NCBI RefSeq assembly: GCF_003002055.1
Contig: NZ_PVZF01000003.1
Span: 310,001-374,000 of the forward strand
Direction of reading: 5' to 3'
From: Kineococcus rhizosphaerae
GTDB lineage: Bacteria; Actinomycetota; Actinomycetes; Actinomycetales; Kineococcaceae
Length of the DNA: 64,000 nucleotides
Part shown: positions 11,052-27,907 of the stretch, piece by piece
Numbering within the stretch: the first letter of the stretch is position 1
How the letters are laid out: every line of letters begins with the position of its first letter
Notes under the pieces: model-generated
The model's input: only the letters and a program-made list of their open reading frames with translations
What the model was told of the DNA's origin: nothing
The model's database searches: none
Translations under genes and position numbers: made by a program

Positions 11052-11133
11052 CCCTGCAGCCTGCCGGGCCGGCGGGCGCGCGGCCAGCGGTTTCCGCGGG
11101 CGCCCGGGCTCACGACGAGGCTCACGACGAGGC

Positions 11134-12126: not shown

Positions 12127-12133
12127 GTCCCGA

Positions 12134-13573: not shown

Positions 13574-13637
13574 GACGGAACTCCTCGAGACGAGGACGAG
13601 TGGTGGGGCGCTGGCCTCCCGCGACGTGTCGTCGTAG

Positions 13638-13680
13638 AGTGGAGGCTGCCTCCGGTACGTTAGCGGAGGCAGCCTCCACT
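13638..13680. promoter_or_regulatory. Twin palindromic operators between MFS exporter and TetR genes
   Basis: A perfect 17-bp inverted repeat (13638-13654 and 13664-13680) is separated by 9 bp. Each arm contains its own palindrome, GGAGGCTGCCTCC or GGAGGCAGCCTCC. Two self-palindromic half-sites whose centres are 26 bp apart are the layout expected for two TetR-family dimers controlling divergent promoters. Confidence 0.85.
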
Positions 13681-13695
13681 TCGCAAGGGGACGTC

Positions 13696-14265
13696 ATGAC
13701 CGGGTCGGTGCTCCGACGCGAACCGCCCAGGCGGGCCGACGCGCGCCGCAACTACGAGGCGATCCTCGCGGCCGCGCGCGAGGCCTTCACGCAGGACGCT
13801 CCCCCGACGCTGGAAGACGTCGCCCGCACCGCCGGGGTCGGCATCGGCACCCTCTACCGCAACTTCCCCGACCGGTCCGCGCTGCTCGAGGCGGTCTACC
13901 TCGACGAGGTCCAGACGCTGTGCGACGTCGGCCGGGACCTGGCCGCCGCGCGCCCGCCGTGGGAGGCCCTGGCCGGCTGGCTGCACCGGTACGTGCAGTA
14001 CCTCGCGACCAAGCGCTCCCTCGCCGAGGAACTGCGCTCGGCGTTCGGCGCCGGCAACCCCGTCTTCGCGTCCTGCCGCACCGCCATCACCGAGGCCGGT
14101 GACCCGCTGCTGCGGGCCGCGCAGTCCGCGGGTGACGCGCGCGCCGACGTCGGGATCGACGACGTCGTCCGGCTCGTCTCGTCCATCTCCACGGGCAGCT
14201 ACTCCACGCCCGACCAGCTCGACCGCGTGCTCGGGATGGCGATCGACGGCCTGCGCGCCCGCTGA
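13696..14265 (+). CDS. TetR-family repressor
   Basis: A 189-residue protein from the ATG at 13696, which has AAGGGG 5 bp upstream; an earlier in-frame start would run through the operator. The N-terminal helix-turn-helix reads TLEDVARTAGVGIGTLYRNFPDR (residues about 38-60). The C-terminal ligand domain is of the SbtR-like short type. It is divergent from the MFS exporter and almost certainly binds the twin palindromes at 13638-13680, repressing both genes. Confidence 0.92.
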   Translation: MTGSVLRREPPRRADARRNYEAILAAAREAFTQDAPPTLEDVARTAGVGIGTLYRNFPDRSALLEAVYLDEVQTLCDVGRDLAAARPPWEALAGWLHRYVQYLATKRSLAEELRSAFGAGNPVFASCRTAITEAGDPLLRAAQSAGDARADVGIDDVVRLVSSISTGSYSTPDQLDRVLGMAIDGLRAR

Positions 14266-14949
14266 TCAGAGCAGCCGGAACTCGTTGCCGCTCGGGTCGA
14301 GCAGGTCGGATCCGTCGGCGCGCGCCCCGAGCGCGAGCAGCCGGTCGAGCTCGGCCCGCCGGTCGCCGCGCGCCCGCAGGTCCAGCCGCCAGCGGTTGCG
14401 CCCCCTCTTCGGCTCGACGGGGTCACCGCCCCAGGTGAACTTCGGCCCGCCGGCCGGTGACTGAACGGCCGTCTCGGTGCCCTCGCCCCACACCAGCGGC
14501 CAGCCCAGGGCGTCGCGCCAGAAGTACCCCGCGGCCTGCGACCCGTCGCCCGACAACGCCCCGATCGGCCCGCACCCGGCCAGGAACCGGTTCTCGGGCT
14601 CGATGACGCAGAACTCGTTCCCCTCCGGGTCGGCCAGCACCATGTGCCGTTCCTCCGGGAGCTGGCCCACGTCGAAGGGTCGCCCACCGGCGGCCAGCGC
14701 CCGGGCCACGATCGCGTCCTGGTCCTCCTGCGACGTGCTCGTCAGGTCCAGGTGGATCCGGTTGCGCCCCGACCCCGGCACCGTCGTCGGGACGAACCGG
14801 AGCCGGAACCCGGGGTCGTCGGCCGGGTCCAGGAAGGACCCGCCCTCCGGGTCGGGGACGACCGCTCCCCCGAGGACCACCGACCAGAACCGCGCGAGAC
14901 GTTCGGGGTCGAGGGCGTCGACGCACAGCGCCGCCACGTCGCAGGGCAT
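14266..14949 (-). CDS. VOC-family (glyoxalase/bleomycin-resistance fold) two-module protein
   Basis: A 227-residue protein made of two VOC modules. Module 1 (about 1-115) has WSVVLGGAVV, the strand RNRIHLDL and the end motif MVLADPEGNEFCVIE. Module 2 (about 116-227) has RDALGWPLVW, WRLDLRA and LLDPSGNEFRLL. The metal-ligand pattern His/Glu is intact in module 1 and weaker in module 2. Its function could be an enzyme or a small-molecule binding protein. It abuts the convergent TetR gene with no spacer. Confidence 0.85.
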   Translation of the reverse strand: MPCDVAALCVDALDPERLARFWSVVLGGAVVPDPEGGSFLDPADDPGFRLRFVPTTVPGSGRNRIHLDLTSTSQEDQDAIVARALAAGGRPFDVGQLPEERHMVLADPEGNEFCVIEPENRFLAGCGPIGALSGDGSQAAGYFWRDALGWPLVWGEGTETAVQSPAGGPKFTWGGDPVEPKRGRNRWRLDLRARGDRRAELDRLLALGARADGSDLLDPSGNEFRLL

Positions 14950-14999
14950 GGACCACGGTAACGCGCCCACCCGCCCCGGGGCAGCCCCCGGCGCCGGCC

Positions 15000-15842
15000 T
15001 CACGCCGTCGTGGACGCCCCCAGGACGGACAGCAGTTCCAGCTTCTCCTGGTCCTCGGTCCCGGGGACCGCGGTGTAGACCAGCAGCAGGTGGTTCTGCT
15101 GCGGATCCAGCAACGTCTGGCAGTGCAGCTCGATCCGGCCCACCGCCGGGTGCACGAACCGCTTGACCTCCTGCGGGCGCAGTCCGACCTCGTGCAGTTC
15201 CCACAACCGGCGCAGTTCCTCCGAGTTCGCCAGCGCCAGCTCGGCCAGTTCCGCGGCCCGCGACCCCGGCCCGCGCCGGGTGACGACTTCGCGCAGGCCC
15301 GAGGCGTACACCCGGGACAGGAACCCGTGGTCCTCCGGCGCGTACCCCGCCCGGGCCGCGGGGTCGGTGAACCAGCGGTACCCCAGGCTGCGGGCCGGCC
15401 CCGTCCACCGGTCGGCGGGGCCGGTCAGCGCGACGCCCACCGGCGTCTGGCGCAACGTCACCCCGAGTTCGGTGACGATCTCGGCGGGCGTGTCGACCAG
15501 CCGGTCCAGGATCCGCAGCAGGCCGGGGCCGACGTGCTCGCTGAGGGCACCCCGCGCCGGCGGTTGGTGCCCGGCCAGTCGGAACAGGTGGTCGCGCTCG
15601 TCCAGCCCCAGGTGCAGGCCCTGGGCGAGGGAGGCGATCATCTGCTCCGAGGGCCGGGGCCCGCGCTCGCGTTCCAGCCGTGCGTAGTAGTCGGTCGACA
15701 TGTGGGCCAGGGCGGCGACCTCCTCGCGCCGCAACCCGGCGGTGCGCCGCCGCTGCCCCCGGGGCAGGCCGACGTCCTGGGGCTGCAGGGCCTCGCGTCG
15801 TCGCCGCAGGAACTGCGCCAGTCCCGCCCTGTCGATGTCCAT
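15000..15842 (-). CDS. XRE-family regulator with MmyB-like ligand domain
   Basis: A 280-residue protein. The N-terminal helix-turn-helix (GLRREEVAALAHMSTDYYARLERERGP split over residues about 37-62) is followed by the MmyB-type PAS-like domain (LGYRWFTDPAAR, and HPAVGRIELHCQTLL near the C-terminus). Members bind fatty-acid-like ligands and usually control a divergent oxidoreductase gene. That is exactly the layout here, with an SDR at 16012 and a 10-bp perfect inverted repeat in the spacer. Confidence 0.92.
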   Translation of the reverse strand: MDIDRAGLAQFLRRRREALQPQDVGLPRGQRRRTAGLRREEVAALAHMSTDYYARLERERGPRPSEQMIASLAQGLHLGLDERDHLFRLAGHQPPARGALSEHVGPGLLRILDRLVDTPAEIVTELGVTLRQTPVGVALTGPADRWTGPARSLGYRWFTDPAARAGYAPEDHGFLSRVYASGLREVVTRRGPGSRAAELAELALANSEELRRLWELHEVGLRPQEVKRFVHPAVGRIELHCQTLLDPQQNHLLLVYTAVPGTEDQEKLELLSVLGASTTA

Positions 15843-15853
15843 CGTCCTCCCCC

Positions 15854-15900
15854 GCCGTGGTCCCCCCTTCCTACCGCCTGCGGTCGGGACGGACCACGGC
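15854..15900. promoter_or_regulatory. Inverted repeat in divergent XRE/SDR promoter region
   Basis: GCCGTGGTCC (15854-15863) and GGACCACGGC (15891-15900) form a perfect 10-bp inverted repeat with a 27-bp spacer, just upstream of the regulator start. It is a candidate operator for the MmyB-like regulator. The rest of the 168-bp spacer holds only the AGGAGGA ribosome-binding site of the SDR. Confidence 0.5.
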
Positions 15901-16011
15901 CTGGCGATCCCCCCTTCCGGCGGGGACCCCCAGGGGCGGATCGACGGGCCCTGGTTCGGAGCGCGGTCCCGGTCGAGGCTGGGGCCACCACCCCGACCCA
16001 GGAGGAACGTC

Positions 16012-16962
16012 GTGCCCCGAACCCCTCAGCTGTCCCTGCCCGACCTGTCCGGCCGGCGCGCCCTGGTCACCGGAGCCAGCGACGGCATCGGCCTCGGCAT
16101 CGCCGCCCGGCTGGCCGCCGCCGGGGCCCAGGTGCTCCTGCCGGTCCGCAACCGCACCAAGGGGCAGGCGGCGCTGGACCGTCTGCGCGCCCGGCACCCC
16201 GGGGCCCAGGTGGTCCTGCACGACCTGGACCTGTCCTCGCTGTCCTCGGTCGCCGCCCTCGGGCAGCGGCTGCGGGACGAGGGTGACCCGATCCACCTGC
16301 TCGTCGCCAACGCGGGGGTGATGACCCCGCCGCACCGGCAGACCACCGCCGACGGGCTGGAACTGCAGCTGGGCACCAACCACCTCGGCCACGTCGCCCT
16401 GGTGGCCCACCTGCTGCCCCTGCTGCGCGCCGGCCGGGCCCGGGTCACCTCCCAGATCAGCGTCGCGGCCCGCAGCGGTGCGGTGCACTGGGCCGACCTG
16501 AACTGGGAAAGCAGTTACCACGGCATGCGGGCCTACGGCTCCTCCAAGGTCGCCCTCGGCCTGTTCGGCCTCGAACTGGACCGCCGCAGCCGCGCCGGGG
16601 GGTGGGGCATCACCAGCAACCTGTCCCACCCCGGGGTCGCCCCCACCAGCCTGCTCGCCGCCCGCCCCGAACTGGAGCGTGAACGGAACACCCCCCAGAT
16701 CACCCTCATCCGCGCCCTCTCGCGCGCGGGCCTCCTGGTCGGCACCGCTGAGAGCGCCGCGCTGCCCGCGCTGCACGCGGTCGCCGACCCGAAGGCCGAG
16801 GGCGGACGGCTGTACGGGCCCACCGGGCCCGGTCACCTGGGGGGCGGCGCGGGTGAGCAGCCGCTGTACCGCCCGCTGCGCGACGAGGCCGAGGCGGCCC
16901 GGGTGTGGGAGGTGTCCCAGGAACTGGCCGGGGTGTCGTTCAGCGCCGTCGCCGCGGCCTGA
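16012..16962 (+). CDS. Short-chain dehydrogenase/reductase (retinol-dehydrogenase-like)
   Basis: A 316-residue classical-to-extended SDR from the GTG at 16012, which has AGGAGGA 6 bp upstream. The cofactor motif is TGASDGIG, with NAG (VANAGVM) and the active-site YGSSK. Arg after strand 2 (PVRNRTKG) favours NADP(H). Family members of this length reduce diverse carbonyls. Its divergent XRE/MmyB neighbour is its likely regulator. A strong hairpin terminator follows the stop. Confidence 0.9.
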   Translation: MPRTPQLSLPDLSGRRALVTGASDGIGLGIAARLAAAGAQVLLPVRNRTKGQAALDRLRARHPGAQVVLHDLDLSSLSSVAALGQRLRDEGDPIHLLVANAGVMTPPHRQTTADGLELQLGTNHLGHVALVAHLLPLLRAGRARVTSQISVAARSGAVHWADLNWESSYHGMRAYGSSKVALGLFGLELDRRSRAGGWGITSNLSHPGVAPTSLLAARPELERERNTPQITLIRALSRAGLLVGTAESAALPALHAVADPKAEGGRLYGPTGPGHLGGGAGEQPLYRPLRDEAEAARVWEVSQELAGVSFSAVAAA

Positions 16963-16971
16963 GCCCCTCGT

Positions 16972-16999
16972 GCACCCACCGGCCGGGGCCGGTGGGCGC
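16972..16999. terminator. Bidirectional hairpin between convergent SDR and permease genes
   Basis: A stem of 13 bp with one mismatch (GCACCCACCGGCC / GGCCGGTGGGCGC) and a tiny loop lies between the stops at 16962 and 17005. It has no T-tract, as is usual for actinobacterial terminators. Confidence 0.7.
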
Positions 17000-17004
17000 A
17001 CGGG

Positions 17005-17892
17005 TCACTTCAGGCCGGTGGCCGCGATCCCCTGGATGAAGTAGCGCTGCAGGAAGAGGAACAGCACGAGGACGGGCACGAGGATCGTCACCGACCCGGC
17101 GAGCAGCACGCCGTAGTCGGTGGTGTTCGCCGCGGCCGACGCCACCGACAGCCCGACCGGCAGCGTGTACGTGTCGGTGGACTGGGCGACGACGAGCGGC
17201 CAGAGGAAGTAGTTCCAGCTGTTGAGGAACGTGAAGATCGCCACGGTGGCGACCGCCGGTCCCAGCAGCGGCAGGACGACGCGGACGAAGACGCCCACGT
17301 CGCTGGCCCCGTCGAGGCGCGCCGCCTCCAGCAGCTCGTCCGGGACGGAGGTCGCGAACTGCCGCATGATGAAGACCGCGATGGGCATGACCAGCATCGG
17401 CAGGACGATCCCGGCCAGGGTGTCCACCAGCCCCAGCTGCACGACGATCACGAACTGCGGGACGAAGACGGCCACGTAGGGGATGGTCATGGCCAGGACG
17501 ACGGCGCCGAAGACCAGGCTGCGGCCGCGGAAGGGCACCTTGGCCAGCGCGTACCCGGCCATCGCGCTGAACAGGACGTTGGTCACGACCGTGACCCCCG
17601 ACACGATCGCGCTGTTGAGGAAGTAGCGCCCGAAACCCTTCTCGGTGAACAGCACGACGAAGTTGTGCACGTTGGTGAAGGAGTCCGGCAGCCACCCGCC
17701 GGGGTCCGAGGTGAACTCCCCCTGCGTCTTGAACGCGCCGAACACCACGAGGGCGAACGGGGCGAGCATGAGGAGGGACACCACGACGAGCAGCACGTAC
17801 ACGGCGACGGCCGCGGCCGGCCGCGTGCCGCCGGGCCCGGTCGGCGTGACCGTCACGGCGGTGGGGGTGGGGGTGGGGGTCTGGACGCTCAA
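17005..17892 (-). CDS. Carbohydrate ABC transporter permease, MalG/CUT1 type
   Basis: A 295-residue protein with about six membrane segments and the conserved cytoplasmic EAA loop (ELLEAARLDGASDVGVF) that docks the ATPase. The TTG start at 17892 overlaps the stop of the preceding permease gene as TTGA, implying coupling. The N-terminus is a Thr/Pro-rich stretch encoded by a (GTGGGG)-like simple repeat. Together with 17889-18869 it forms the heterodimeric channel for the binding protein at 18872. No ATPase is encoded locally, so a shared MsiK-type ATPase is likely. Confidence 0.9.
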   Translation of the reverse strand: MSVQTPTPTPTAVTVTPTGPGGTRPAAAVAVYVLLVVVSLLMLAPFALVVFGAFKTQGEFTSDPGGWLPDSFTNVHNFVVLFTEKGFGRYFLNSAIVSGVTVVTNVLFSAMAGYALAKVPFRGRSLVFGAVVLAMTIPYVAVFVPQFVIVVQLGLVDTLAGIVLPMLVMPIAVFIMRQFATSVPDELLEAARLDGASDVGVFVRVVLPLLGPAVATVAIFTFLNSWNYFLWPLVVAQSTDTYTLPVGLSVASAAANTTDYGVLLAGSVTILVPVLVLFLFLQRYFIQGIAATGLK

Positions 17893-18869
17893 TGCTTCGA
17901 CCTCAGCAGACGCACCTGGGCGGTGCTCACGACGAGCACCACGACGAGAAGGACCATCGAGCCGGCCATCGAGTCGGCGATCCGGCCGTAGCCGAACTGG
18001 TCGTAGACCCACTTCGCCACCGAGGTGGTCGCGCTCAGCGGCCCCCCGTTCGTCACGAGGTACGGCTCGTCGAAGATGTTGAGGAACGACACGCTCATGA
18101 GGACCGACACCAGCAACGTCGTGGGCCGCAGCAGCGGGACCGTCATCGCGGTGACCCGGCGCCAGTAGCCGGCCCCGTCCAGCGCGGCGGCCTCGTGCAC
18201 CTCCTCGGGCACCGACTGCAGACCGGCGAGGAACAGCACCATGCAGGTGCCGATGTTGCGCCACACGGTCAGCAGCAGCACCGCGACGACCGCCCACCCG
18301 GGCCGGCCCAGCCAGTTGGGTCCGTCGACACCGAGGGCGCCGAGGAACCCGTTGACCGGTCCCTGCTGGGTGAAGGCGTACTGCCACAGCACCGCCGCGG
18401 CGACCACGTTGGCGATGACGGGGACGTAGACGATCGCGCGGAAGACGCTGCGCATCCGCCGGATGCCGGAGTCCAGAGCGAGGGCCAGCACGAAACCCGC
18501 CCCCATGGTGACGGGGACGCCGACCACCACGAAAAGCGCGGTGTTCAGCATCGCCCGCTGGAAGTCCTCGCTGCCCAGGATGCTCGCGTAGTTCCCCAGC
18601 CCGACCACGTCCACCGCGAAGGGGCTGGTGAGGTCGCGGATCCCGATGTCGGTGAGGCTGAGGAACAGGGCCATGGCCGCGGGCACGACGCTGAAGACCA
18701 CGAAGACGACCACGAAGGGCAGGACGAAGCCCCAGCCCATGACGTCCAGGGAGGCGCGCCGTCCCCGCCCGGCTCGGCGCGGCGCAGGCCCGCGGGTCGT
18801 GCTCGGGGCGGGACCCGCCGTGGGGACCGACGCGGAGCTCGAGGTGGAGCTCGAGGTGGTGGGAGCCAC
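17889..18869 (-). CDS. Carbohydrate ABC transporter permease, MalF/CUT1 type
   Basis: A 326-residue protein. The GTG at 18869 follows the stop of the binding-protein gene by 2 bp. A Ser/Thr/Pro- and Arg-rich cytoplasmic leader of about 50 residues precedes six membrane helices. The EAA loop reads EVHEAAALDGAGYWRRV. It is the partner of the MalG-type permease and the middle gene of a tightly packed three-gene transporter unit. Confidence 0.9.
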   Translation of the reverse strand: MAPTTSSSTSSSASVPTAGPAPSTTRGPAPRRAGRGRRASLDVMGWGFVLPFVVVFVVFSVVPAAMALFLSLTDIGIRDLTSPFAVDVVGLGNYASILGSEDFQRAMLNTALFVVVGVPVTMGAGFVLALALDSGIRRMRSVFRAIVYVPVIANVVAAAVLWQYAFTQQGPVNGFLGALGVDGPNWLGRPGWAVVAVLLLTVWRNIGTCMVLFLAGLQSVPEEVHEAAALDGAGYWRRVTAMTVPLLRPTTLLVSVLMSVSFLNIFDEPYLVTNGGPLSATTSVAKWVYDQFGYGRIADSMAGSMVLLVVVLVVSTAQVRLLRSKH

Positions 18870-18871
18870 GG

Positions 18872-20188
18872 TCAGGCCCCGGTCCCCAGCGCCTCGGCCT
18901 GCTTCTGCGCCTCGTCCAGCGCCGCCTGAGCCGTCGACCCGCCCCGCACGACCTGCTCCATCTGCTTGCCGATGACGTCGGCGACCTGGCTCCAGGTGGC
19001 CGCCGTCGGAGCGCCGAAGGCGGTCGGGATGGCGTCGCGCACCGGGGCCAGCAGTTCGTCGTCGGCGATCGCCGGGTCGTCCCAGGCGGACTGGACGGCG
19101 GGCAGGTTGCCGAAGGTCTGGTACCACTGCACCTGCACCTGGGGCCGGGACAGGTACTCCACGAGCTTCCAGGCGGCCTGGGCGTTGCCGCCGCGGTCGA
19201 GGACGCCGAGGCTGCCGCCGCCCAGGGCGGCGGCCTTGGCCCCACCGGGACCGGCCGGTTGCGCGTAGACGCCGATGTTCTTCGCCACGTACCCCTCGCC
19301 GGCCGCCTCGTCGATCCAGCCCGGCAGCCACGGGCCGTTGGAGACGTTCACGACGTTCTTCCCGGACGTCAACCACGGGACGACGTCGAGGAAGGCCGGG
19401 CCGTCCGGGGAGGAGTACCCGGCGGTGAACAGCGAGGCGAAGTACTCCAGCGCCTGCACGTTGGCGGCGGCGTTGATCGCCCACCCCTTGCCGTCCTCGG
19501 TGGTGAGGGACGAGCCGTTCTGGTGCACGTACTCCGACAGCGCCTCCGCGGAGTACTCGTCCCACGCCACCGCCATGCCCAGAGGGATGGAGTGCCCCGC
19601 GGCCACGAGCTGCCGGCAGAAGGCCTCGTTCTCCTCCCAGGTGGTCGGCGGGGTCAGGCCCAGACCGTCCACGACGTCCTTGCGGTAGTAGTTCACCCGG
19701 GCGTAGGCGTACCACGGCACGGCCTTGTGCGCTCCGTCCGCGGTCGTGACCCCGGCCAGCGCGGGCTCGAAGAACGAACCCAGGTCCACCAGCCCCTCGG
19801 GCACGGTCTGGAACGCCCCGGTCGCCAGGATCGACGACTGGGTCTGCGAGTACAGGGACACGAGGTCGGGCACCCGGCCGGAGGCGATGGCCGCGGTGAG
19901 CTTGGTGTCGAACTCCGACGACGGGATCGTGGTGACGTTCACCGTGACGTCCGGGTTCTCCTTCTTGAACGCCGCGATGAAGGGGGGCAGCGAGTCGCCG
20001 TCCGGGGCCCCGGCCCAGAACTCGACGGTCCCGGTCGCCGGGCCGTCGGTGACGCTGATGGGTGCCGACGCGCGGGAGTCACCGGTACCGCTGCGCCCGC
20101 ACGCGGCCAGACCCGCGGTCAGGGCGGCCGCGGACGCGCCGGCGAGGACCGTGCGGCGGGACGTGGACCGGTCAGGACGGACGAGCAT
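18872..20188 (-). CDS. Extracellular carbohydrate-binding lipoprotein of a CUT1 ABC transporter
   Basis: A 438-residue family 1 solute-binding protein. The leader contains TSRRTVLAG, a twin-arginine motif, and ends with lipobox LAAC, so it is probably Tat-exported and lipid-anchored. Mature markers include VTVNVTTIPSSEFDTKL and TWEENEAFCRQLVAAGH. It would capture an oligosaccharide or glycoside for the two permeases that follow. The 196-bp upstream region is the promoter-sized gap of this transporter unit and separates it from the flavoprotein gene on the same strand. Confidence 0.93.
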   Translation of the reverse strand: MLVRPDRSTSRRTVLAGASAAALTAGLAACGRSGTGDSRASAPISVTDGPATGTVEFWAGAPDGDSLPPFIAAFKKENPDVTVNVTTIPSSEFDTKLTAAIASGRVPDLVSLYSQTQSSILATGAFQTVPEGLVDLGSFFEPALAGVTTADGAHKAVPWYAYARVNYYRKDVVDGLGLTPPTTWEENEAFCRQLVAAGHSIPLGMAVAWDEYSAEALSEYVHQNGSSLTTEDGKGWAINAAANVQALEYFASLFTAGYSSPDGPAFLDVVPWLTSGKNVVNVSNGPWLPGWIDEAAGEGYVAKNIGVYAQPAGPGGAKAAALGGGSLGVLDRGGNAQAAWKLVEYLSRPQVQVQWYQTFGNLPAVQSAWDDPAIADDELLAPVRDAIPTAFGAPTAATWSQVADVIGKQMEQVVRGGSTAQAALDEAQKQAEALGTGA

Positions 20189-20324
20189 GGTGGCCCCCTA
20201 GGGTCGGGTGGAGTGGGAGGAACGAGGGTGGAGCCGTTCGCTGGTGCTCACCGGACGGGAGCGACCGGGGGGCCGTGGTGACCCGACCCGGTGCACGCGA
20301 TCGCTTCTGCGACAACGGTACAAG

Positions 20325-20342
20325 AGTTTCCCGCAGTTTCCG
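20325..20342. promoter_or_regulatory. Direct repeats in the promoter region of the sugar-transporter unit
   Basis: AGTTTCCC (20325-20332) and AGTTTCCG (20335-20342) repeat at exactly 10 bp, one helical turn, in the 196-bp spacer between the flavoprotein stop and the binding-protein start. The spacer is noticeably less GC-rich than the flanking genes. These are candidate regulator half-sites; the factor is not identifiable. Confidence 0.4.
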
Positions 20343-20384
20343 TCGATCCCTGGAACTGTTTACCGGGACGAAACGCGGTGGTGC

Positions 20385-21920
20385 TCAGAGGGCGAGGGCA
20401 CCCACCTCCTGCTCGAGGTGTTCCAGGGTTCCACGGGCCGCCCGGACGGCGGTGACCATCGCGGTGAGCGTGGAGTTCGCGGTCACCGGGGTCGGGACCA
20501 CCGAACCCCCGGCGAGGTGCAGGTTGGAGAAACCCCACACCCGCCCCGACGGGTCGCACACGCAGGTCCCGTCGTCGGACCGGCCGCTGCGGGTGGTCCC
20601 CGTCCAGTGCAACGAGGAACCCGGCGCCAGCAGGGCCGAGTCGCGGTCCGGGTCGAAGTCGCCCAGGGCCTCGCACAGCCGCCGCTGGGTGGCGCGGCCC
20701 TCCGCGATGCGGGCGAGGTCGCCGGCCGTGTACCGGTACTCCACGCGCAACCGGGGCAGGCCCGCGGCGTCGACCTCGTCCTCGTCGAACACCAGCCGGT
20801 TGGCCGGGTCGACGTCCGTCGGGACGTACAGCGAGGCACCCGTCGAGTACGCCAGCCGCTCGCCGGCCGCGTCGACGAACAGGCGGTCCATGATCTGGCC
20901 GTGGAAGGGTTGCGCGGGGCCGCTGTGCGGCAGCCAGTGCGAACCGACGACCCACTCCCCCTCCAGCGGCAGCGGGACCGATCCCAGGTCCACCCCCAGT
21001 CGCGGCAGGTCGACGAGGACCTGCCCGGTGAGGAAGGCGTGCTCGTTGAGGTGGGCGCCCAGGGCGGTCGGCCGGATGCCGGAGGCGAACAGCAGTTGCG
21101 GGGTGCGGAAGGTGTCGGCCGCGACGACGACGGCGGCGGCGGCCACCGTGCGCTCCTCGCCGGTGCGGGTGTCGCGGACCTCGACCCCGGCGACCCGGGT
21201 GCCGTCGTGCACCAGGCGCAGGGCGACCGTCCCGGTGAGCACCTCGAAGTCGTCGCCGGGACCCTCCAGCAGGCGGGGCAGGACCACGGTGGGGCCGGTG
21301 CGCGCCAGCGGCCCGGTCCGGCCCGGGGCCACCGCCATGGGCATGGGCTGCGGGTGCCGGCCCGGGGCGCTGACGGGTCCGAACAGCCCGTCCAGCACCC
21401 GCAGGAGGCGGTCGCCGACCTCGGTGGGGGCGAACGGCCGGGCCTGCACGCGCAGCAACCGCTGCGCGGTCGCCAGGTCGGCGGCGAAGGCCTCGGCGTC
21501 GTCGTCGAAGACCTCCGAACCCCACGGCCACGGCGTCGCCGCCGTCCAGTGCACGCCCATGCCCCCGGCGTTGAGCCCGACGGCCGCGGCCGGCATGGCG
21601 GCGGCGTCGGAGCCGAAGGCGGACACGTTGTACATGCCCGGACGGGCGTCGCGGATGCTGCCCCCCAGGGAGGGCGTCGGGTCCGCGCCGAGGTACAGGG
21701 ACTGCACGCCCGGTTCGACCCGCTGCAGGTAGGTCTCACGCACGTCGGGTTCGGCGGAGTCGTGCAGGTGGGCGCCCGCGACCGTCCCGATCGGGCGGCC
21801 GGCGTCGACGATCACGATCCGCGTCCCGGGACGTGCCGCCCGGGCCTGCGCCGCGACCGCGGCCCCCATGAGTCCACCGCCGACGACGAGCAGGTCGGCG
21901 GGAGCGGTGTGCGAGTCCAT
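20385..21920 (-). CDS. GMC flavoprotein oxidoreductase, pyranose-2-oxidase / C-glycoside-3-oxidase-like
   Basis: A 511-residue protein with the FAD dinucleotide motif VVGGGLMGAAVA near residue 12. The flavin-proximal motif GGMGVHWTAATP (His124) corresponds to the GGMSTHWTCATP motif that I recall in fungal pyranose 2-oxidase, where that His bonds the flavin covalently. The catalytic pair appears as His438 (SLHWTGTTRSG) and Asn482 (TANSTLTAM), 44 residues apart, against 45 for His548/Asn593 of Trametes P2O. It is shorter than fungal P2O, like bacterial members. It would oxidise C2 or C3 of a free or glycosidic sugar. Neighbours are a ROK regulator, a sugar ABC transporter and a TIM-barrel isomerase. 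The exact substrate is unknown. Confidence 0.82.
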   Translation of the reverse strand: MDSHTAPADLLVVGGGLMGAAVAAQARAARPGTRIVIVDAGRPIGTVAGAHLHDSAEPDVRETYLQRVEPGVQSLYLGADPTPSLGGSIRDARPGMYNVSAFGSDAAAMPAAAVGLNAGGMGVHWTAATPWPWGSEVFDDDAEAFAADLATAQRLLRVQARPFAPTEVGDRLLRVLDGLFGPVSAPGRHPQPMPMAVAPGRTGPLARTGPTVVLPRLLEGPGDDFEVLTGTVALRLVHDGTRVAGVEVRDTRTGEERTVAAAAVVVAADTFRTPQLLFASGIRPTALGAHLNEHAFLTGQVLVDLPRLGVDLGSVPLPLEGEWVVGSHWLPHSGPAQPFHGQIMDRLFVDAAGERLAYSTGASLYVPTDVDPANRLVFDEDEVDAAGLPRLRVEYRYTAGDLARIAEGRATQRRLCEALGDFDPDRDSALLAPGSSLHWTGTTRSGRSDDGTCVCDPSGRVWGFSNLHLAGGSVVPTPVTANSTLTAMVTAVRAARGTLEHLEQEVGALAL

Positions 21921-21932
21921 CGGGCGGCCTCC

Positions 21933-21955
21933 AATGTGCGATGAAGTAGCACAAT
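21933..21955. promoter_or_regulatory. Palindrome upstream of the GMC flavoprotein
   Basis: AATGTGC (21933-21939) and GCACAAT (21949-21955) form an inverted repeat (6 of 7 bp) with a 9-bp spacer, in the 57-bp gap between the ROK stop and the flavoprotein start. The half-site GCACATTG recurs at the start of the TIM-barrel gene (23189-23196), suggesting one regulator for both. Confidence 0.5.
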
Positions 21956-21977
21956 AAGCGCGGCGCGCCCGTCCGGT

Positions 21978-23102
21978 CTAGGACTTGGCCCGGAGCAGCT
22001 CGTCGTCGACACTGGCCCGCGCCTCGTGCAGGGCCCCCAGCAGCACGGCGTCCCCACCGAGGGAGGTGGCCCGGATGGGTACCGCCGGCGCGCCCTCGGC
22101 GGCCAGGGCGGTCTCCAGCCGCGGCACGAGGACGTCGGCGGCCACCTCCAGACCGCCCCCGAGCACGACCAGCGGCGGCGCGATCGTCCACACCAGGGTG
22201 ACCAGCACCCGGGCCAGCGGGGCGGTGAACTCGTCGAGCAGGTCGGCGGCGTCACGGTCCCCGGAGCGGACCCGCTCGACGATCCGCTCGGCGCGTGCCC
22301 GCTCCTGCGGGTCGGGGTGGGTCAGGCCGCCGAGCGGGTGCTCGTGCAGTTCGGACATCCCCACCGCCGGGGCGCGCACGATCTCGCCCGCCGAACTGCG
22401 GAAACCCCGGTGGACCTCACCGCGGATGACGATCCCCGCACCGTTGCGGGCCCCCGCCAGCAACCACGTGAAACTGTCCAGGCCCTGCGCAGCGCCCTTC
22501 CACCGCTCCCCCACGGCCGCGAGGTTCGCGTCGTTGTCCCCGACGAAGGGGAACGGGAACGCTTGCGCCAGAACGGCTGAAGGCCGAACTCCCGTCCAGG
22601 TCGGGGCGTCGACCAGTCCGAGCACCAGTCCCTCGTCGTCGATCAGACCGGGCATCGCGACCGCCCCCGCCCGCACGACGCCCACCGGGCGCCCGGAGGC
22701 GACCAGCGCGGCGTTCAACGCGTCCACGGCCTGCTCCAGCGTCGTCGCCGGGTCGTAGTAGTCGCTCAGGACCCTGCGCTCGGACGAGAGCAACCGCCCG
22801 TGCGTGTCCGCGACGCCGGCGCGCACCGAGTGCGTGTCCACCTGGACCGCGGCGAACAGGGCGTTGTCCGGCTGGAACGCGAACGCCCGGGGCGGTCGCC
22901 CCACCCCGGTGGAACCGACCGCCACCTCCCGCACCCACCCGTCGGCGAGGAGGTCGGCGAGGATGAGCTCGACGGTCCGCCGGGACAGTTCCGTGCCCCG
23001 CGTGAGCTGGGCCATCGTCAGCGGGGCGTCCGCCTCGCGCAGGAGGCGGAACGTCAGGGCGGCGTTGAGGCGCCGCATGACGGCGGGGTCCACGGGTGGC
23101 AC
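21978..23102 (-). CDS. ROK-family transcriptional regulator
   Basis: A 374-residue protein. Residues about 8-75 form a winged helix (LTMAQLTRGTELSRRTVELILADL). The rest is a ROK sugar-binding domain (VGDNDANLAAVGERW, ARNGAGIVIRGEVHRG). The cysteine cluster CxCGxxGC that binds structural zinc in most ROK proteins is absent; its place is taken by the segment around VGMSELHEHPLGG. It is probably the sugar-responsive repressor of the flavoprotein/transporter genes downstream and of the divergent TIM-barrel gene. Confidence 0.9.
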   Translation of the reverse strand: MPPVDPAVMRRLNAALTFRLLREADAPLTMAQLTRGTELSRRTVELILADLLADGWVREVAVGSTGVGRPPRAFAFQPDNALFAAVQVDTHSVRAGVADTHGRLLSSERRVLSDYYDPATTLEQAVDALNAALVASGRPVGVVRAGAVAMPGLIDDEGLVLGLVDAPTWTGVRPSAVLAQAFPFPFVGDNDANLAAVGERWKGAAQGLDSFTWLLAGARNGAGIVIRGEVHRGFRSSAGEIVRAPAVGMSELHEHPLGGLTHPDPQERARAERIVERVRSGDRDAADLLDEFTAPLARVLVTLVWTIAPPLVVLGGGLEVAADVLVPRLETALAAEGAPAVPIRATSLGGDAVLLGALHEARASVDDELLRAKS

Positions 23103-23171
23103 AGCGGAAGCCTAGAGGGCCGCCCACCCGCCCCACGTCCCCGAGGTCTCCCGCTCACGGCGCCGTCGGGC

Positions 23172-23184
23172 TAATCTGCGGGGA
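23172..23184 (+). promoter_or_regulatory. Likely leaderless promoter of the TIM-barrel gene
   Basis: TAATCT at 23172-23177 is a good -10 hexamer and lies 6 bp before the ATG at 23184, so the transcript would begin at or next to the start codon. No Shine-Dalgarno sequence is needed or strong. Confidence 0.5.
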
Positions 23185-24134
23185 TGTCGCACATTGAATC
23201 CGAGCCGCAGTACGGCGTCGACCTCGTGACCTTCTACCACCCCGGTTTCTGGGGCGTGTCCACCGCGGAGGAGATGGTCGCCTGGTGCGCCGAGCACCCC
23301 CGCGAGATGTGGGACCGCATGCTCGACGCGCTCGCCGAGGCCGACGTGCCGTGGATCGAGCTGACCTTCCCGCCGTTGGACTTCCGCAGCGCGCTCGCCG
23401 CGTTCGGCTCCGTCGACGGGGTGCTGGAGGCGTTCGCCGCCCGGGGTGTGCGGGTCCTGTCGGGCTTCTGCAACGGCACGCACTGGGGCGGGCTCAGCCC
23501 GCAGGAGGCGGTGGCGGAGATGGCCGAGTACGCGGCCTTCCTGCGCGGCACCGGGGCGGGGATCCTCGTCCTGGGCACCCCGATGCTGGCCGGCGGCCCG
23601 GACGCGCCCGTGCAGGCGCTGTCCGCGGACGAGCACCGGCGGCTGCTGGAGCACCTCGCCCGGGTGTGCGACGCGGTCGGCGCCTCGCTGGCCGACACCG
23701 GGATCCGACTGGCGGTGCACACCGAGTCGCACTCGATCACCGTGGCCGCCGAGGACGTCCGGACGCTGATGGGGCTGACCGACCCCGCGCTGGTGGGTCT
23801 GTGCCCGGACTCGGCGCACATCACGCTGTCCGGCGGGGACCCGGTGGCCCTGGCCCGGGAGTTCGCCGACCGGGTGCTCGTCTCGCACTGGAAGGACGCC
23901 GCCGGCCCCTTCCCCGCCGACCTGGTCCTCGACGAGGACGTCCACGCGGTGCACCGGCGCTTCATGCGTCCCATGGGCGACGGCGTCGTGGACTGGCCGG
24001 CCTGGGCCGCCGTCATGGCCGGCACGCCGACGGCCGGGGTGCGGCTGCTGGAGCTGGACGCGGCGCCGGACCCGGTGGCCGAGCTGCGCGCGGCGCGGGC
24101 CGTGGCCGACGGGCTCGTGCCGGCCGCCGGCTGA
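23184..24134 (+). CDS. Sugar-phosphate isomerase/epimerase-type TIM barrel (AP endonuclease 2 superfamily)
   Basis: A 316-residue protein of the PF01261 type. Candidate metal ligands appear in order: WIELTF (Glu), VHTESHS (Glu and His), CPDSAHI (Asp/His), VSHWKDAAG (His) and LLELDAAPDP (Glu). Relatives include xylose isomerase-like IolE/IolI, 3-keto-sugar epimerases and lyases, and the large subunit of C-glycoside deglycosidases. The position next to a pyranose-oxidase-like flavoprotein and a glycoside transporter makes a 3-keto-glycoside substrate plausible. That is inference from context. A hairpin terminator follows. Confidence 0.85.
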   Translation: MSHIESEPQYGVDLVTFYHPGFWGVSTAEEMVAWCAEHPREMWDRMLDALAEADVPWIELTFPPLDFRSALAAFGSVDGVLEAFAARGVRVLSGFCNGTHWGGLSPQEAVAEMAEYAAFLRGTGAGILVLGTPMLAGGPDAPVQALSADEHRRLLEHLARVCDAVGASLADTGIRLAVHTESHSITVAAEDVRTLMGLTDPALVGLCPDSAHITLSGGDPVALAREFADRVLVSHWKDAAGPFPADLVLDEDVHAVHRRFMRPMGDGVVDWPAWAAVMAGTPTAGVRLLELDAAPDPVAELRAARAVADGLVPAAG

Positions 24135-24178: not shown

Positions 24179-24823
24179 TCAGCGGGCGGCGCGCCGCATC
24201 CGGACGGCCAGCGCGGCGACGTGGGCCCCGGCCCGGGCGCGGGCCGCCGCCACGTCCCCGGCCGCGACGGCCGCGACGATGCCGCGGTGCTCGGCGACGG
24301 CGAGTTCCCGGTGGCGCTGGTCGGCCCACAGGCCCGCGCCGAACAGGTGGGCGCGGACCTCCAGGCGACGCAGCGTCTCGGCGAGCGTGGCGTTGCCGGA
24401 CAGTTCGCGCAGCAGCGCGTGGAAGCGCAGGTCCAGCGCGGCGTCGCCGGCCGGGTCGACGGGTCCGCGCACCGCCCGCTCCCCCGCGTCCAGGAGTTCC
24501 TCCAGGCGGGTCAGGCCGTCGGCGTCGACGACCGCGGTCGCCTCCGCGGCGGCGAGGCCGTCGAGCACCTCCCGCACCCGCAGCACCTCGTCGAGGTCGG
24601 CCAGGCTCACCGTCGCCACCCGGGCCCCGGTGTGCGCAACCGTCACCGCGACACCCTCGGCGACCAGGCGCTGGACCGATTCGCGCACCGGGCTGCGGCT
24701 GACGCCGAGTTCGAGGGCGAGCGCCGGGACGCTGAGCGCCGAACCCGGCGCGAGCCGGCCGTCGACGATCCGGTCGAGCAACGTGGCGTAGACGCTGTCG
24801 ACGAGGAGTTCGACCTCGGTCAC
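24179..24823 (-). CDS. GntR-family regulator, FadR/FCD subtype
   Basis: A 214-residue protein with a winged helix (LELGVSRSPVRESVQRLVAEG, residues about 37-57) and an FCD ligand domain (LRVREVLDGLAAAEA; FHALLRELSGNATLAETLRRL; EHRGIVAAVAAGD). FCD domains bind metal and organic acids or related metabolites. It starts 5 bp after the stop of the oxygenase gene, so the two form an operon in which the regulator probably controls its own unit and the divergent amidohydrolase. Confidence 0.92.
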   Translation of the reverse strand: MTEVELLVDSVYATLLDRIVDGRLAPGSALSVPALALELGVSRSPVRESVQRLVAEGVAVTVAHTGARVATVSLADLDEVLRVREVLDGLAAAEATAVVDADGLTRLEELLDAGERAVRGPVDPAGDAALDLRFHALLRELSGNATLAETLRRLEVRAHLFGAGLWADQRHRELAVAEHRGIVAAVAAGDVAAARARAGAHVAALAVRMRRAAR

Positions 24824-24828
24824 CGGGC

Positions 24829-25821
24829 TCAGCCCTTCGGAGTGCCGTAGTTCGCGCGGATCCGCTCGGCGAGGTAGTCGGCCGCGGTGATCGGCGGGTA
24901 GGTCCCCCGTGGCGTCTCGATGAGCACCTCGCGGTTGGCCTGGGCGAAGAACGGCATGCTGTACCGCGCCCCGGTGTACTCCCCCTCACCGGGCATCCGC
25001 ACGCGGTGGAAGTTCGACAGGAGCTGGTCGTCGCTCCAGCGCATGAGCATGTCGCCGATGTTGCACGTGATGGCGTCGTCGGAGGGGACGACCGAGGTCC
25101 ACTCCGGCGCCTCGAGGTCGCGGCCCGGGCAGACCTGCAGACCGCCCTGCCCCGTGCGCTGGAAGAGCAGCGTGAGGCAGTCGAAGTCGGTGTGCGCCCC
25201 GGCCCGCCACACCCCCGGCTGGGCCGCGACGTCCGCCGGGAGCTCGGGGTAGTGCAGGATCCGCAGGGTCGACTGGTAGGTGTCGGAGGCCGGGTCGTGC
25301 GCGCGGGCGAAGAAGTGGCGGTCGAAACCCAGCCGGTCGGCGAAGCAGGACAGGACCCGCATCGCCAGTTCCCAGCAGCGCGTCTCGAAACCGAGCATGA
25401 ACTCGGCGAAGTCCGGCAACTGCTCCTGCGAGGGCAGCAGGCCGGACATGTGCGGGCGGGTGAGCTGGTAGGACTCCTTGCGGTCGGGGGTGCCGACCGA
25501 GGGGCGCACCTGGGTGCCCGACTCCCACCCGGAGTTCTTCGGCTTGTCCAGCGGGAACCGCTGCTTGACCTCGACGGGCAGGTCGAAGAACGCCTTCGCC
25601 ATGGCGAAGGCGCGGTCGACCTCGGCGGCCGGGATGCCGTGGTTGACGATCTGGAAGAACCCGACCTCGGTGGCGGCCGACCACAGCGCCTCGGTGATCT
25701 CGGCCCGGCGGGTCTCGAAGTCGGACAGGTCGATCTGCGGGATCTCGCGGTCGCGTTCGGCACCGAGCCCGCCCATGCGGGACTCGCGCTGCAACTCGGT
25801 CATCGGAGGGGTGGTTGTCAT
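24829..25821 (-). CDS. 2-oxoglutarate/Fe(II)-dependent dioxygenase, isopenicillin-N-synthase-like family
   Basis: A 330-residue protein from the ATG at 25821, with GGAG upstream. The DIOX-N region (PQIDLSDFETRR, FFQIVNHGIP) precedes the jelly-roll core. The iron triad is complete: His210 and Asp212 (GAHTDFD) and His272 (SNFHRVRMPG). The 2-oxoglutarate clamp RxS is Arg286/Ser288 (ARYSMPFF). This family includes thymine-7-hydroxylase and gibberellin or flavonoid oxygenases. With nucleobase-type deaminases next door, hydroxylation of a nucleobase or N-heterocycle is a reasonable guess. It overlaps nothing and is co-transcribed with GntR. Confidence 0.88.
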   Translation of the reverse strand: MTTTPPMTELQRESRMGGLGAERDREIPQIDLSDFETRRAEITEALWSAATEVGFFQIVNHGIPAAEVDRAFAMAKAFFDLPVEVKQRFPLDKPKNSGWESGTQVRPSVGTPDRKESYQLTRPHMSGLLPSQEQLPDFAEFMLGFETRCWELAMRVLSCFADRLGFDRHFFARAHDPASDTYQSTLRILHYPELPADVAAQPGVWRAGAHTDFDCLTLLFQRTGQGGLQVCPGRDLEAPEWTSVVPSDDAITCNIGDMLMRWSDDQLLSNFHRVRMPGEGEYTGARYSMPFFAQANREVLIETPRGTYPPITAADYLAERIRANYGTPKG

Positions 25822-25833
25822 GGCTCCATCGTG

Positions 25834-25892
25834 GTGTTGCATGCGATCGGTGCCAAGACCTGCCGTGTGAACACTGTGTTGCATGTAGTCGG
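25834..25892. promoter_or_regulatory. 17-bp direct repeats in the oxygenase/amidohydrolase divergent promoter
   Basis: GTGTTGCATGCGATCGG (25834-25850) and GTGTTGCATGTAGTCGG (25876-25892) agree at 14 of 17 positions and are 42 bp apart, four helical turns. They fill most of the 79-bp spacer between the two start codons and are candidate GntR operators acting on both genes. Confidence 0.6.
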
Positions 25893-25900
25893 GGGGTCTT

Positions 25901-27274
25901 GTGCCGGTGACGGGGACTGGGGAGAGTGCCGAGGTGCCGACCCTGCGACTGACCGCCGACAGCCCCGCCGCTCCACCGCCGCCGGCCGTCCTCGACGTGT
26001 CCGTGTGGACGGGATCGGGCTGGAGCGACCACCAGGACGTCCTGGTCGAGGACGGGACCGTCACCGCGGTCCGGGACCACCGCCCCGGTTCACCCGGTCT
26101 CGACGGCTCCGGCGCCCACCTCCTGCCGGGGTTCGTCAACACCCACACGCACCTGCTGCAGGCGACCTGCCGCGGGGTGGGCGAGGGCCAGCCGCTGCTG
26201 GCCTGGCTGCTGTCGGTGGGTGAGCACATGGCGTCCGTGACCCCGGAGTCGGCGTACCTGGCGACCGTCGCCGGCGCGCTGGAGGGGTTGCGCAGCGGGA
26301 CGACGACCCTCGTGGAACACCTGTGGCCCCACCCCTCGCGGGAGGTGCACGACGCCGTCCTGCAGGGGCTGGCGGACGTGGGGGTGCGGGCCCTGGTCGG
26401 GCGCGGGATCGCCGACCGGCCCGACCCCACCCGCCGCTGGGGTTTCGACCCGCGCCTCATGGAACCGCTGGACGACGTCCTGGCCCACGTCGACGACCTC
26501 GTCGCGCGCACGCGCGGTTCGCTCACCACACCCGCCCTGGCCGTGCCCAACCCCCGCAGCCTCACCCCCGACGGGCTGCGCACCGTCGCCGCGTTCGCCG
26601 CCGAGCGGGACCTGCGCACCTCGATCCACCTGCTGGAGACCGAGACCGACGACGTCATGTGCCGCGAGCACACCGGCCGCGGCGCCGTGCAGTACCTGGA
26701 CGAGGCCGGTTTCCTCAGCGACCGGGTCCTGGCCGTGCACGGGGTGGCGCTGGGCGAGGAGGACATCCGCGTGCTCGCCGACCGCGGTGTCGCGCTCTCC
26801 CACAACCCGGTCTCGAACATGCGGCTGGGCTCCGGGGTCGCGCCGGTCCCCGCGCTGCTCGCGGCGGGCGTGCCGGTGGGGCTGGGGGTCGACGGGGCCG
26901 CCTCCAACGACCGGCAGGACATGCTGGAGACGCTGCGCACCACGGCCTACGTGCAGCGCGCGACGCACCGCCGCGCCGACCTGCTGGGTTTCTCCGAGGT
27001 GGTGGCGATGGCCGTCGACGGGGCCGCCGGCGTCCTGGGACTGCCCCGCCGTCCCCGGGGCGGGGTCACGGTCGGCACCCCGGCGGACCTGACGCTGATC
27101 CGCTTCGACCGCGACTTCGGCTGCCTGCCGGTGCACGAACCCGGCGCCGCCCTGCTGACCACGGGCACCCCGCGCGTCGTCGACACCGTCCTGGTCGCCG
27201 GTGAGGTCGTGGTGCGCGACGGCCGCAGCACGCGCGTCGACGAGGACCGGCTGGTCGCGGCCCTGCGCGGCTGA
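25901..27274 (+). CDS. Amidohydrolase, ATZ/TRZ deaminase subfamily
   Basis: A 457-residue metal hydrolase. The ligand set is complete for a mononuclear deaminase: His82 and His84 (NTHTHLLQ), His243 with Glu246 (HLLETETD), His280 (LAVHGVALG) and Asp331 (GVDGAASND). SHNPVSNMRLGSG is the subfamily signature. Relatives deaminate 8-oxoguanine, guanine, cytosine or s-triazines. The first 30 residues are poorly conserved, and the GTG at 25901 (weak GGGGGG site) may not be the true start. It is divergent from the oxygenase-GntR unit. Confidence 0.9.
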   Translation: MPVTGTGESAEVPTLRLTADSPAAPPPPAVLDVSVWTGSGWSDHQDVLVEDGTVTAVRDHRPGSPGLDGSGAHLLPGFVNTHTHLLQATCRGVGEGQPLLAWLLSVGEHMASVTPESAYLATVAGALEGLRSGTTTLVEHLWPHPSREVHDAVLQGLADVGVRALVGRGIADRPDPTRRWGFDPRLMEPLDDVLAHVDDLVARTRGSLTTPALAVPNPRSLTPDGLRTVAAFAAERDLRTSIHLLETETDDVMCREHTGRGAVQYLDEAGFLSDRVLAVHGVALGEEDIRVLADRGVALSHNPVSNMRLGSGVAPVPALLAAGVPVGLGVDGAASNDRQDMLETLRTTAYVQRATHRRADLLGFSEVVAMAVDGAAGVLGLPRRPRGGVTVGTPADLTLIRFDRDFGCLPVHEPGAALLTTGTPRVVDTVLVAGEVVVRDGRSTRVDEDRLVAALRG

Positions 27275-27291
27275 CCGTCCTGTCGTCCCGT

Positions 27292-27319
27292 CGTCCCGGG
27301 GTCGCAGGACCCCGGGACG
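27292..27319. terminator. Bidirectional hairpin between amidohydrolase and deaminase genes
   Basis: Perfect 12-bp stem CGTCCCGGGGTC / GACCCCGGGACG with a 4-nt loop between convergent stops at 27274 and 27325. Confidence 0.8.
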
Positions 27320-27324
27320 CGCGC

Positions 27325-27783: not shown

Positions 27784-27907
27784 GCTCGCCACCTTCTCTC
27801 GTCGTGCCGGGACCGGGCGGCACCCGGGCGCGCAGCGGGTTCCGGGAACCCTACCCGACGCCCCGGCCCGGCCCGGCCCGGGGAACTCCCCGCGACCCTC
27901 CGCGGGT

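Follow-up and report, generated by a model that had tools for sequence, protein, structure and literature searches.

A conserved sugar-oxidase cassette in Kineococcus rhizosphaerae and its possible role in the catabolism of glycosides with guanine-like aglycones

Introduction

What kind of compound is handled by a gene block that brings together a sugar importer, a flavoprotein of the pyranose oxidase type, a TIM-barrel enzyme, and a ROK regulator? Such a block lies at positions 17005-24134 of a 64,000-nt stretch of Kineococcus rhizosphaerae DNA (the window, by which the whole stretch is meant). The importer, the regulator, the flavoprotein, and a divergent PF01261 barrel had been described in an earlier note made from the sequence alone, and that description is borne out by the open reading frames (ORFs) and their Pfam matches. 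The oxidase, ROK, and barrel genes, nearly always accompanied by transporter genes, form a conserved cassette, which is a new finding. We propose, with belief and doubt about evenly balanced, that the block serves to import a glycoside whose aglycone is guanine-like, to oxidise its sugar in the cytoplasm, to release the aglycone by beta-elimination, and to deaminate it. That a glycoside is handled is well supported, and the identity of the aglycone is suggested mainly by the relatives of the cassette.

The oxidase resembles clade III of the actinobacterial pyranose / C-glycoside oxidases (POx/CGOx), whose natural substrate is not settled. The one studied member of clade III, ScPOx from Streptomyces canus, acts best, among the glycosides tried, on puerarin (7.35 U/mg versus 0.045 U/mg on glucose and 0.003 U/mg on ribose), and its authors read Michaelis constants in the molar range as an indication that the natural substrate is not a simple sugar (PMC9659204). 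The operon offers a concrete and testable substrate class, in that the substrate may be a guanine-like ring on a sugar, unlike the plant C-glycosides studied so far. If this is true, heterocycle glycosides join the compounds cleaved through oxidation and beta-elimination, the finding bears on how plant compounds such as vicine are degraded in soil and feed, and the oxidase, eliminase, and deaminase make up a ready enzyme set. Among the papers listed in searches on nucleoside oxidation and N-glycoside elimination, none points to such an operon in its title or abstract, and the words deaminase and nucleoside are absent from the main text of two papers (PMC10807413, PMC11673046).

Conservation of the cassette

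Core loci are those where the oxidase reaches 50% identity to its window counterpart, a threshold chosen after the data had been seen. The core set consists of 34 genomes (2 of the window genus, 9 of Microbacteriaceae, and 23 of Streptomyces), where the window is counted together with 33 other loci. Loci L006 and L007 (33-35% identity) and L041 (5 kb only) were left out of the counts, and L092, L093 (48-50%), and L147 (49%), all without the deaminase described below, fall just under the threshold. Both the ROK gene and the PF01261 barrel gene are found beside the core oxidase gene at 34/34 loci. The gene for the solute-binding protein (SBP) is found at 32 of them; L008 ends at a contig end and L002 has none. 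The recurrence of importer, ROK, oxidase, and barrel in relatives supports the earlier view of these genes as one unit.

The core-type oxidase is uncommon. It is encoded in 7/199 Microbacteriaceae genomes (matches above 800 bits) and in 23/295 Streptomyces genomes (above 850 bits). An order-wide search of 297 genomes placed the core type only in two of the 11 genomes of the window genus, with weaker matches in three further genomes, and a phylum-wide search of 396 genomes, with three candidates scored in each, added one distant genome (G445).

The cassette was compared with 12 control loci that carry other oxidases of the family. These were the loci at hand and no random draw, and a further control (L096) gave no called oxidase. 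A CGDB gene is present in 8/12 control loci and a CarB-type barrel gene also in 8/12 (CarB-type being our label for resemblance to the barrel that adjoins CGDB), whereas neither is present in any of the 33 cassette loci. The earlier note had remarked that no DUF6379 (CGDB) subunit is present, and a tblastn search of the window with one CGDB and one CarB-type protein agrees with it, giving chance matches only (best E 0.92). A C-glycoside operon of the known kind is ruled out by the lack of CGDB and CarB-type genes from the window and from its 33 relatives.

The oxidases of L092 and L093 stand near genes for PF01261 barrels, a PucR regulator, and M20 peptidase-family proteins, of which the one in L092 is allantoate-amidohydrolase-like.

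The guanine-deaminase-type partner in relatives

A deaminase gene lies directly behind the oxidase gene, on the same strand, at 29/34 core loci. The gap between the two genes is -4 to 67 bases (L129 excepted), and at 18 of the 29 linked loci the deaminase and barrel genes share 4 nt. The linked deaminases have 202-204 residues, except for a partial L129 copy of 97. No such deaminase was found by BLAST at any of the 12 control loci (0/12). One Rathayibacter copy has its best PDB matches in 2g84 (3.5e-43) and 7c3s (8.7e-43), one Streptomyces copy also matches 2g84/7c3s, and 7c3s is the guanine deaminase NE0047 (PMC9739398). The assignment was made by Pfam (PF00383) for two copies, by PDB search for two, and by BLAST to these for the others. 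The HAE and PCxxC zinc motifs are kept in 28/29 linked copies, L129 being partial. The operon deaminase of the relatives is thus a homologue of NE0047 (7c3s, 2g84), and its guanine-type specificity is predicted by that homology. We know of no report of an NE0047-type deaminase in a glycoside operon.

The deaminase tree was constructed from 45 sequences, with the partial L129 copy left out. The 28 linked deaminases fall in one clade of 29 rows with support of 97/94, and the single unlinked row in that clade is L171. The sister of this clade (joint support 93/92) includes five of the seven copies that the tree has from the window genus, that of the window genome among them.

The five core genomes without a linked deaminase (the window genome, its congener G008, Subtercola G448, G627, and G619) carry an unlinked one that is 56-70% identical to the Rathayibacter copy. 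The copy of the window genome sits on another contig. The deaminase was sought directly in 18/34 core genomes and taken from the neighbourhood in the other 16. The core-negative genomes (n = 71) were scored for the deaminase at E <= 1e-40, and 7 of them have it: 2/35 Microbacteriaceae, 0/26 Streptomyces, 5/9 of the window genus, and 0/1 of another genus of its family. Fisher tests of core against core-negative genomes gave p 8e-8 for Microbacteriaceae (9/9 versus 2/35), p 2e-14 for Streptomyces (23/23 versus 0/26), and p 0.001 for the unlinked Microbacteriaceae alone (3/3 versus 2/35). The window genus exhibits no signal (2/2 versus 5/9, p 0.49). The trials in these tests are not independent, as the genomes are related and the linked copies were counted by position.

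Some deaminase copies stand in other surroundings. An apparent cassette remnant in Rathayibacter (L171, 9222-9833) has the deaminase gene alone between the usual flanking genes. Another apparent remnant, L180, in a genome with a full cassette elsewhere (G497), has an esterase gene and a deaminase fragment, with its flanks compared by gene size only. The unlinked deaminase gene of both window-genus carriers (L053, 9717-16516; L052, 9661-11699) adjoins a gene for an NtaA/DmoA-type flavin mononucleotide (FMN) monooxygenase, and that of G008 is also near genes for an adenosine deaminase, a PucR regulator, a cytosine-deaminase-type protein, and an NCS1 permease. Two Streptomyces loci (L055, L056) have a second deaminase gene behind apparent genes for a binding protein and a transporter and close to a putative oxygenase/reductase pair for which there is one weak NCBIfam match.

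Characteristics of the oxidase

Gene starts were taken from a simple purpose-written ORF caller, and domains were assigned by Pfam, NCBIfam cut-offs, and PDB sequence search. The oxidase gene (20385-21920, minus strand) encodes a GMC flavoprotein (PF05199 1.2e-18, PF00732 1.5e-9). Its top PDB matches by sequence are pyranose oxidase 8qve (4.6e-71), the GMC oxidoreductase 7qf8 (PsG3Ox; 6.2e-71), and 7dve (MtCarA; 4e-66). The best choline oxidase entry reaches only 5.4e-15, and on these PDB scores a choline or cholesterol oxidase identity is ruled out. The assignment of the flavoprotein to the pyranose oxidase type, as the earlier note had it, holds on the PDB scores and on the tree of 53 sequences described below. 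The oxidase attains 117.9 bits in the pyranose oxidase equivalog TIGR02462, below the cut-off of 544.9.

The residues that had been named as flavin and catalytic motifs (H124 in GGMGVHWT, H438, and N482) are at the positions claimed. H438 and N482 are kept in 51/51 aligned oxidases, the window among them, and the window oxidase thus has the catalytic His/Asn pair, which corresponds to H440/N484 in PsPOx (PMC10807413, PMC10646112). It has been reported that the actinobacterial POx/CGOx enzymes form four clades with distinct motifs (Kostelac et al.; PMC10807413). Of the clade III motifs, the window oxidase has GVHW with Thr after it and His at both the K55 and the Q297 place. Its substrate loop, RLFVDAAGE, comes close to the R(P/T)(F/Y)VDEDG(E/R) of clade III (PMC10807413), and the Streptomyces cassette members mostly have loops of the RTYVDExGR type. 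The place of R94 is taken by Glu or Thr in clade III (PMC10807413). The window and its congener have Arg there, unlike clade III, and the other core members have E, T, A, P, S, or M. With most of the published clade III motifs matched, the oxidase is probably a POx/CGOx enzyme of clade III type.

The tree of 53 oxidases exhibits the window within a set of 38 rows with support of 100/100. The other side of the tree includes PsG3Ox, 8qve, and the oxidases that stand beside CGDB-type genes. The 34 core rows meet at a node supported by 86/88 only, and long branches, including L094, were flagged. By its motifs ScPOx, whose sequence is not in the tree, would belong to one subgroup with the cassette oxidases. 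No signal peptide is evident by eye, so the oxidase is probably cytoplasmic. The structure model of the oxidase is poor at about residues 43-126 (mean predicted local distance difference test score, pLDDT, 71) and was not used.

A separate Streptomyces oxidase group (L150, L153, L154) has GVHW followed by Ala instead of Thr, stands in a row of similar gene sizes, and is perhaps biosynthetic.

The TIM barrel

The barrel gene (23184-24134, plus strand; PF01261 4.9e-17) is divergent from the ROK gene, with 81 bases between them, and its product is a candidate 3-keto-glycoside beta-eliminase with an IolE-like fold. The model of the barrel has a mean pLDDT of 87. IolE proteins are the nearest folds (Z 28.6) and also the best sequence matches. 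The 3-keto-beta-glucopyranoside-1,2-lyase AL1 (PDB 8tcr) matches the model with Z 23.9 at 16% identity. AtOGE, the O-glycoside eliminase of Agrobacterium, is not among the fold matches listed, which excludes nothing.

Eight residues are invariant in the 36 aligned barrels (H179, D209, H212, H235, K237, D238, E290, and D292). Position 181 is Glu in 26/26 barrels of the window type and His in 10/10 barrels of the other type. The metal residues of AtOGE are given as His132, Asp163, His189, and weakly Glu233, with His134 as the catalytic base (PMC10628242). By strand order rather than superposition, H179, D209, H235, and E290 would form the metal site of the window barrel, and E181 would be at the position of the base. 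The two barrel subfamilies are 19-20% identical and occupy one slot in the cassette, which fits a single chemical role.

The importer and the regulator

The three importer genes are on the minus strand. The SBP gene (18872-20188) encodes an extracellular solute-binding lipoprotein (PF13416 4.2e-28, PF01547), whose best PDB match is the sugar-binding protein 3uor of an ATP-binding cassette (ABC) transporter (1.9e-37), and inspection by eye exhibits a twin-arginine motif and an LAAC lipobox. The gene for the MalF/UgpA-like permease (17889-18869; PF00528 1e-16) has 112.6 bits in UgpA, under the cut-off of 335. The gene for the MalG/UgpE-like permease (17005-17892; PF00528 2.4e-18, scanned as 17005-17886) has its best NCBIfam match in GlcU with 148 bits, under the cut-off of 340. 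The SBP gene ends 2 bases from the first permease gene, and the two permease genes share 4 bases. The block thus contains an SBP and two MalF/MalG-type permeases, as in CUT1 importers. No ATPase gene is found in the block; a shared ATPase was not searched for genome-wide.

The ROK gene (21978-23102, minus strand; PF00480 3.7e-24) scores 57.1 bits in NagC and 69.1 bits in ROK_glcA, both under the cut-off. The NagC match starts at residue 9, so the N-terminal DNA-binding part is present. The oxidase gene lies 57 bases behind the ROK gene and 196 bases ahead of the SBP gene. Only short and unconvincing inverted repeats were found at the ROK, SBP, and 2-oxoglutarate (2OG) oxygenase promoters.

The proposed pathway

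The reactions, their regiochemistry, the regulation, and the aglycone are proposed by analogy with the chemistry of the families concerned. The SBP and the two CUT1 permeases would import the intact glycoside, with an ATPase that is assumed to be shared with other importers. The cytoplasmic oxidase of clade III type would use O2 to oxidise a secondary sugar hydroxyl (C3 by analogy), giving a keto-glycoside and H2O2. The PF01261 barrel would then take the proton adjoining the keto group and expel the aglycone by beta-elimination. In the relatives, the guanine-deaminase-type enzyme would deaminate the aglycone; the window genome has its copy on the other contig and further genes of base-deaminase type next to the cassette. 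The ROK protein would repress the block until the glycoside or its sugar is present.

Since the operon encodes a guanine-deaminase-type enzyme, the aglycone would most likely be a 2-amino-oxo-pyrimidine ring (guanine, a pyrimidine of the vicine type, or a pterin), attached to a sugar that ordinary nucleosidases cut poorly. PF01156 nucleoside hydrolases are encoded in 6/6 carriers tested, so plain ribonucleosides would not need an oxidative route. Pyranosides are known substrates of the POx/CGOx family. We take vicine (aglycone divicine), glucosyl-purines, and pterin glucosides to be the candidate substrates. The broader proposal that clade III oxidases are dedicated to the glycosides of guanine-like heterocycles (glucosyl-purines, vicine-type compounds, and pterin glucosides), the base being freed by oxidation and beta-elimination and then deaminated by the enzyme encoded next in the operon, is put forward only tentatively, and we hold it for somewhat doubtful.

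A number of observations weigh against a guanine-like aglycone or against the proposed chemistry. The main weakness is that the link to the deaminase is strongest in the relatives, and the lineage of the window is outside them and has no signal of its own. The branch of the window and its congener is outside the 31-row oxidase clade in which the linked deaminase occurs, and no NE0047-type deaminase was found inside the window by tblastn. Within the window genus, 5/9 core-negative genomes have the deaminase as well, which gives it little weight there. Within the 31-row clade, L090 and L091 have the cassette without a linked deaminase, and the outgroup L094 has transporter, oxidase, and barrel in a genome without a deaminase of the NE0047 type. 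The deaminase also has a use of its own, as the Rathayibacter locus L171 keeps it after the apparent loss of the rest. Distant homologues (44-50% identity) occur in 15/296 phylum-wide genomes besides the window, all from one other family. A carboxylesterase gene, for which the proposed route does not account, is present at 20/34 core loci. In the barrel, the window has Glu181 where AtOGE has its catalytic His and so departs from the AtOGE type, and its fold is matched by AL1 no better than by xylose isomerases. The ScPOx study concluded that the enzyme prefers puerarin, a C-glycoside (PMC9659204), and other C-glycosides are oxidised too (PMC10807413).

A rival explanation is a cassette for phenolic C- or O-glycosides, as in CarA/PurA or AtOGE, where the deaminase would be a metabolic passenger that scavenges nitrogen and is unrelated to the aglycone. 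This explanation appears rather unlikely to us. It gains from the activity of the oxidase family on such glycosides, as that of ScPOx on puerarin (PMC9659204), from AtOGE as a case where a single TIM barrel without a small subunit can be an O-glycoside eliminase (PMC10628242), and from the five of 34 cassettes without a linked deaminase, L090 and L091 being nested among linked ones. The place of the deaminase gene directly behind the oxidase gene in 29/34 loci over two families, and in none of the 12 loci of other oxidases, argues against it, as does the distribution of the CGDB and CarB-type genes, which are absent from the 33 cassette loci and have a locus of their own elsewhere in the window genome. 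The earlier note had proposed an O-glycoside or a new variant. This stands insofar as the cassette is not of the known CarBC/DgpBC C-glycoside kind, and a plain phenolic O-glycoside leaves the deaminase of the relatives unexplained.

The guanine-deaminase-type partner in relatives and the nucleobase-type enzymes around the window cassette would also suit oxidative cleavage of ordinary ribo- or deoxyribonucleosides, a third route beside hydrolysis and phosphorolysis. Such a route is improbable, for it would be redundant with the nucleoside hydrolases of all six carriers tested, the activity of ScPOx on free D-ribose is 0.003 U/mg (PMC9659204), and the importer is of the CUT1 sugar type. Slightly more improbable still is an inositol or inositol-glycoside route, in which the flavoprotein would make an inosose and the IolE-like barrel would dehydrate it. 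The barrel does match IolE proteins best, in fold and in sequence; however, it has 65.4 bits in the IolE family TIGR04379 against a cut-off of 290, 0/5 other cassette genes match an inositol family, and the oxidase groups with glycoside oxidases in the tree. A barrel that acts only on inositol or free sugars had been named in the earlier note as an outcome that would tell against a glycoside route; the family score does not point that way, although the fold is nearest to IolE. The oxidation of free monosaccharides, as by fungal or clade I pyranose oxidases, shares the superfamily and the TIGR02462 match with the window oxidase, yet the match is so far below its cut-off that we give this explanation hardly any credence. 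The reading as a cassette for glycosides with a guanine-like aglycone accounts for the linked deaminase, which the earlier note did not foresee, just as it did not foresee the CGDB-type locus elsewhere in the window genome.

Comparison with known systems

The cassette would work like the C- and O-glycoside oxidase/eliminase systems, yet it lies outside CarABC/DgpABC, and by score outside TIGR02462 and IolE. CarA/CarBC and PurA/PurBC likewise have a flavin adenine dinucleotide (FAD) oxidase followed by an eliminating enzyme (PMC12724307). The window differs from them in having no CGDB subunit and no CarB-type barrel and in an oxidase from the other side of the tree, and it has instead a ROK regulator, a CUT1 importer, and, in relatives, a deaminase. 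As compared by motifs, the window oxidase probably shares with ScPOx and clade III the GVHW motif, the His residues at the K55 and Q297 places, the His/Asn pair, and a similar substrate loop (PMC9659204, PMC10807413), and it differs in its Arg at the R94 place and in the loop RLFVDAAGE itself. AtOGE is a single TIM barrel with His/Asp/His/Glu metal residues, as the window barrel would be by analogy (PMC10628242). It differs in that its oxidising partner is another dehydrogenase, GlycDH (PMC10628242), and in having HxH where the window barrel has HxE, the nearest listed PDB folds of the latter being IolE. AL1 has a fold in common with the window barrel, and xylose isomerases are alike in score.

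Neighbouring genes and a second locus

Four genes of possible nucleobase metabolism flank the barrel gene at 24179-27792. They are neighbours and only candidate members of the cassette. The GntR/FCD regulator gene (24179-24823, minus strand; PF07729, PF00392) has a counterpart of 91% in the congener G008, where it is beside the cassette too. The 2OG/Fe(II) oxygenase gene (24829-25821, minus strand; PF14226, PF03171) has thymine dioxygenase 5c3p as its best PDB match (2.3e-30). The amidohydrolase gene (25901-27274, plus strand; PF01979 5.1e-47) encodes a protein of the nucleobase/triazine deaminase type, which has 255 bits in the NCBIfam 8-oxoguanine deaminase family, under the cut-off of 532, and PDB matches to 3hpa, 4v1x, and 7ww2. 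The fourth gene (27325-27792, minus strand; PF00383 3e-16) encodes a cytosine-deaminase-type protein (PDB 2o3k, cytosine deaminase, 3e-30). G008 retains the GntR, 2OG oxygenase, and amidohydrolase genes at 90-95% and has another pair of amidohydrolase and PF00383 genes at the opposite end of the cassette. In Subtercola, genes for an adenosine deaminase (above the NCBIfam cut-off) and for an FMN monooxygenase stand within a few genes of the cassette. One Streptomyces cassette has a 2OG oxygenase gene, 27% identical to that of the window, after its TIM-barrel gene (L131, 6232-7266).

The second locus of the window genome (L036, G000:C8:55500-75000, positions 7038-18311) is of the C-glycoside type, and its GMC oxidase falls on the same side of the tree as PsG3Ox. 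Its other genes encode two PF01261 barrels, a GH3 enzyme, a luciferase-like monooxygenase, a major facilitator superfamily (MFS) sugar transporter, a CarB-type barrel, and beside the latter a CGDB subunit identified by Pfam.

Elsewhere in the window, a transporter set of the energy-coupling factor (ECF) type lies at 34471-37377 and consists of a PF09819 permease, a double ABC ATPase, and a further apparently membrane-bound protein.

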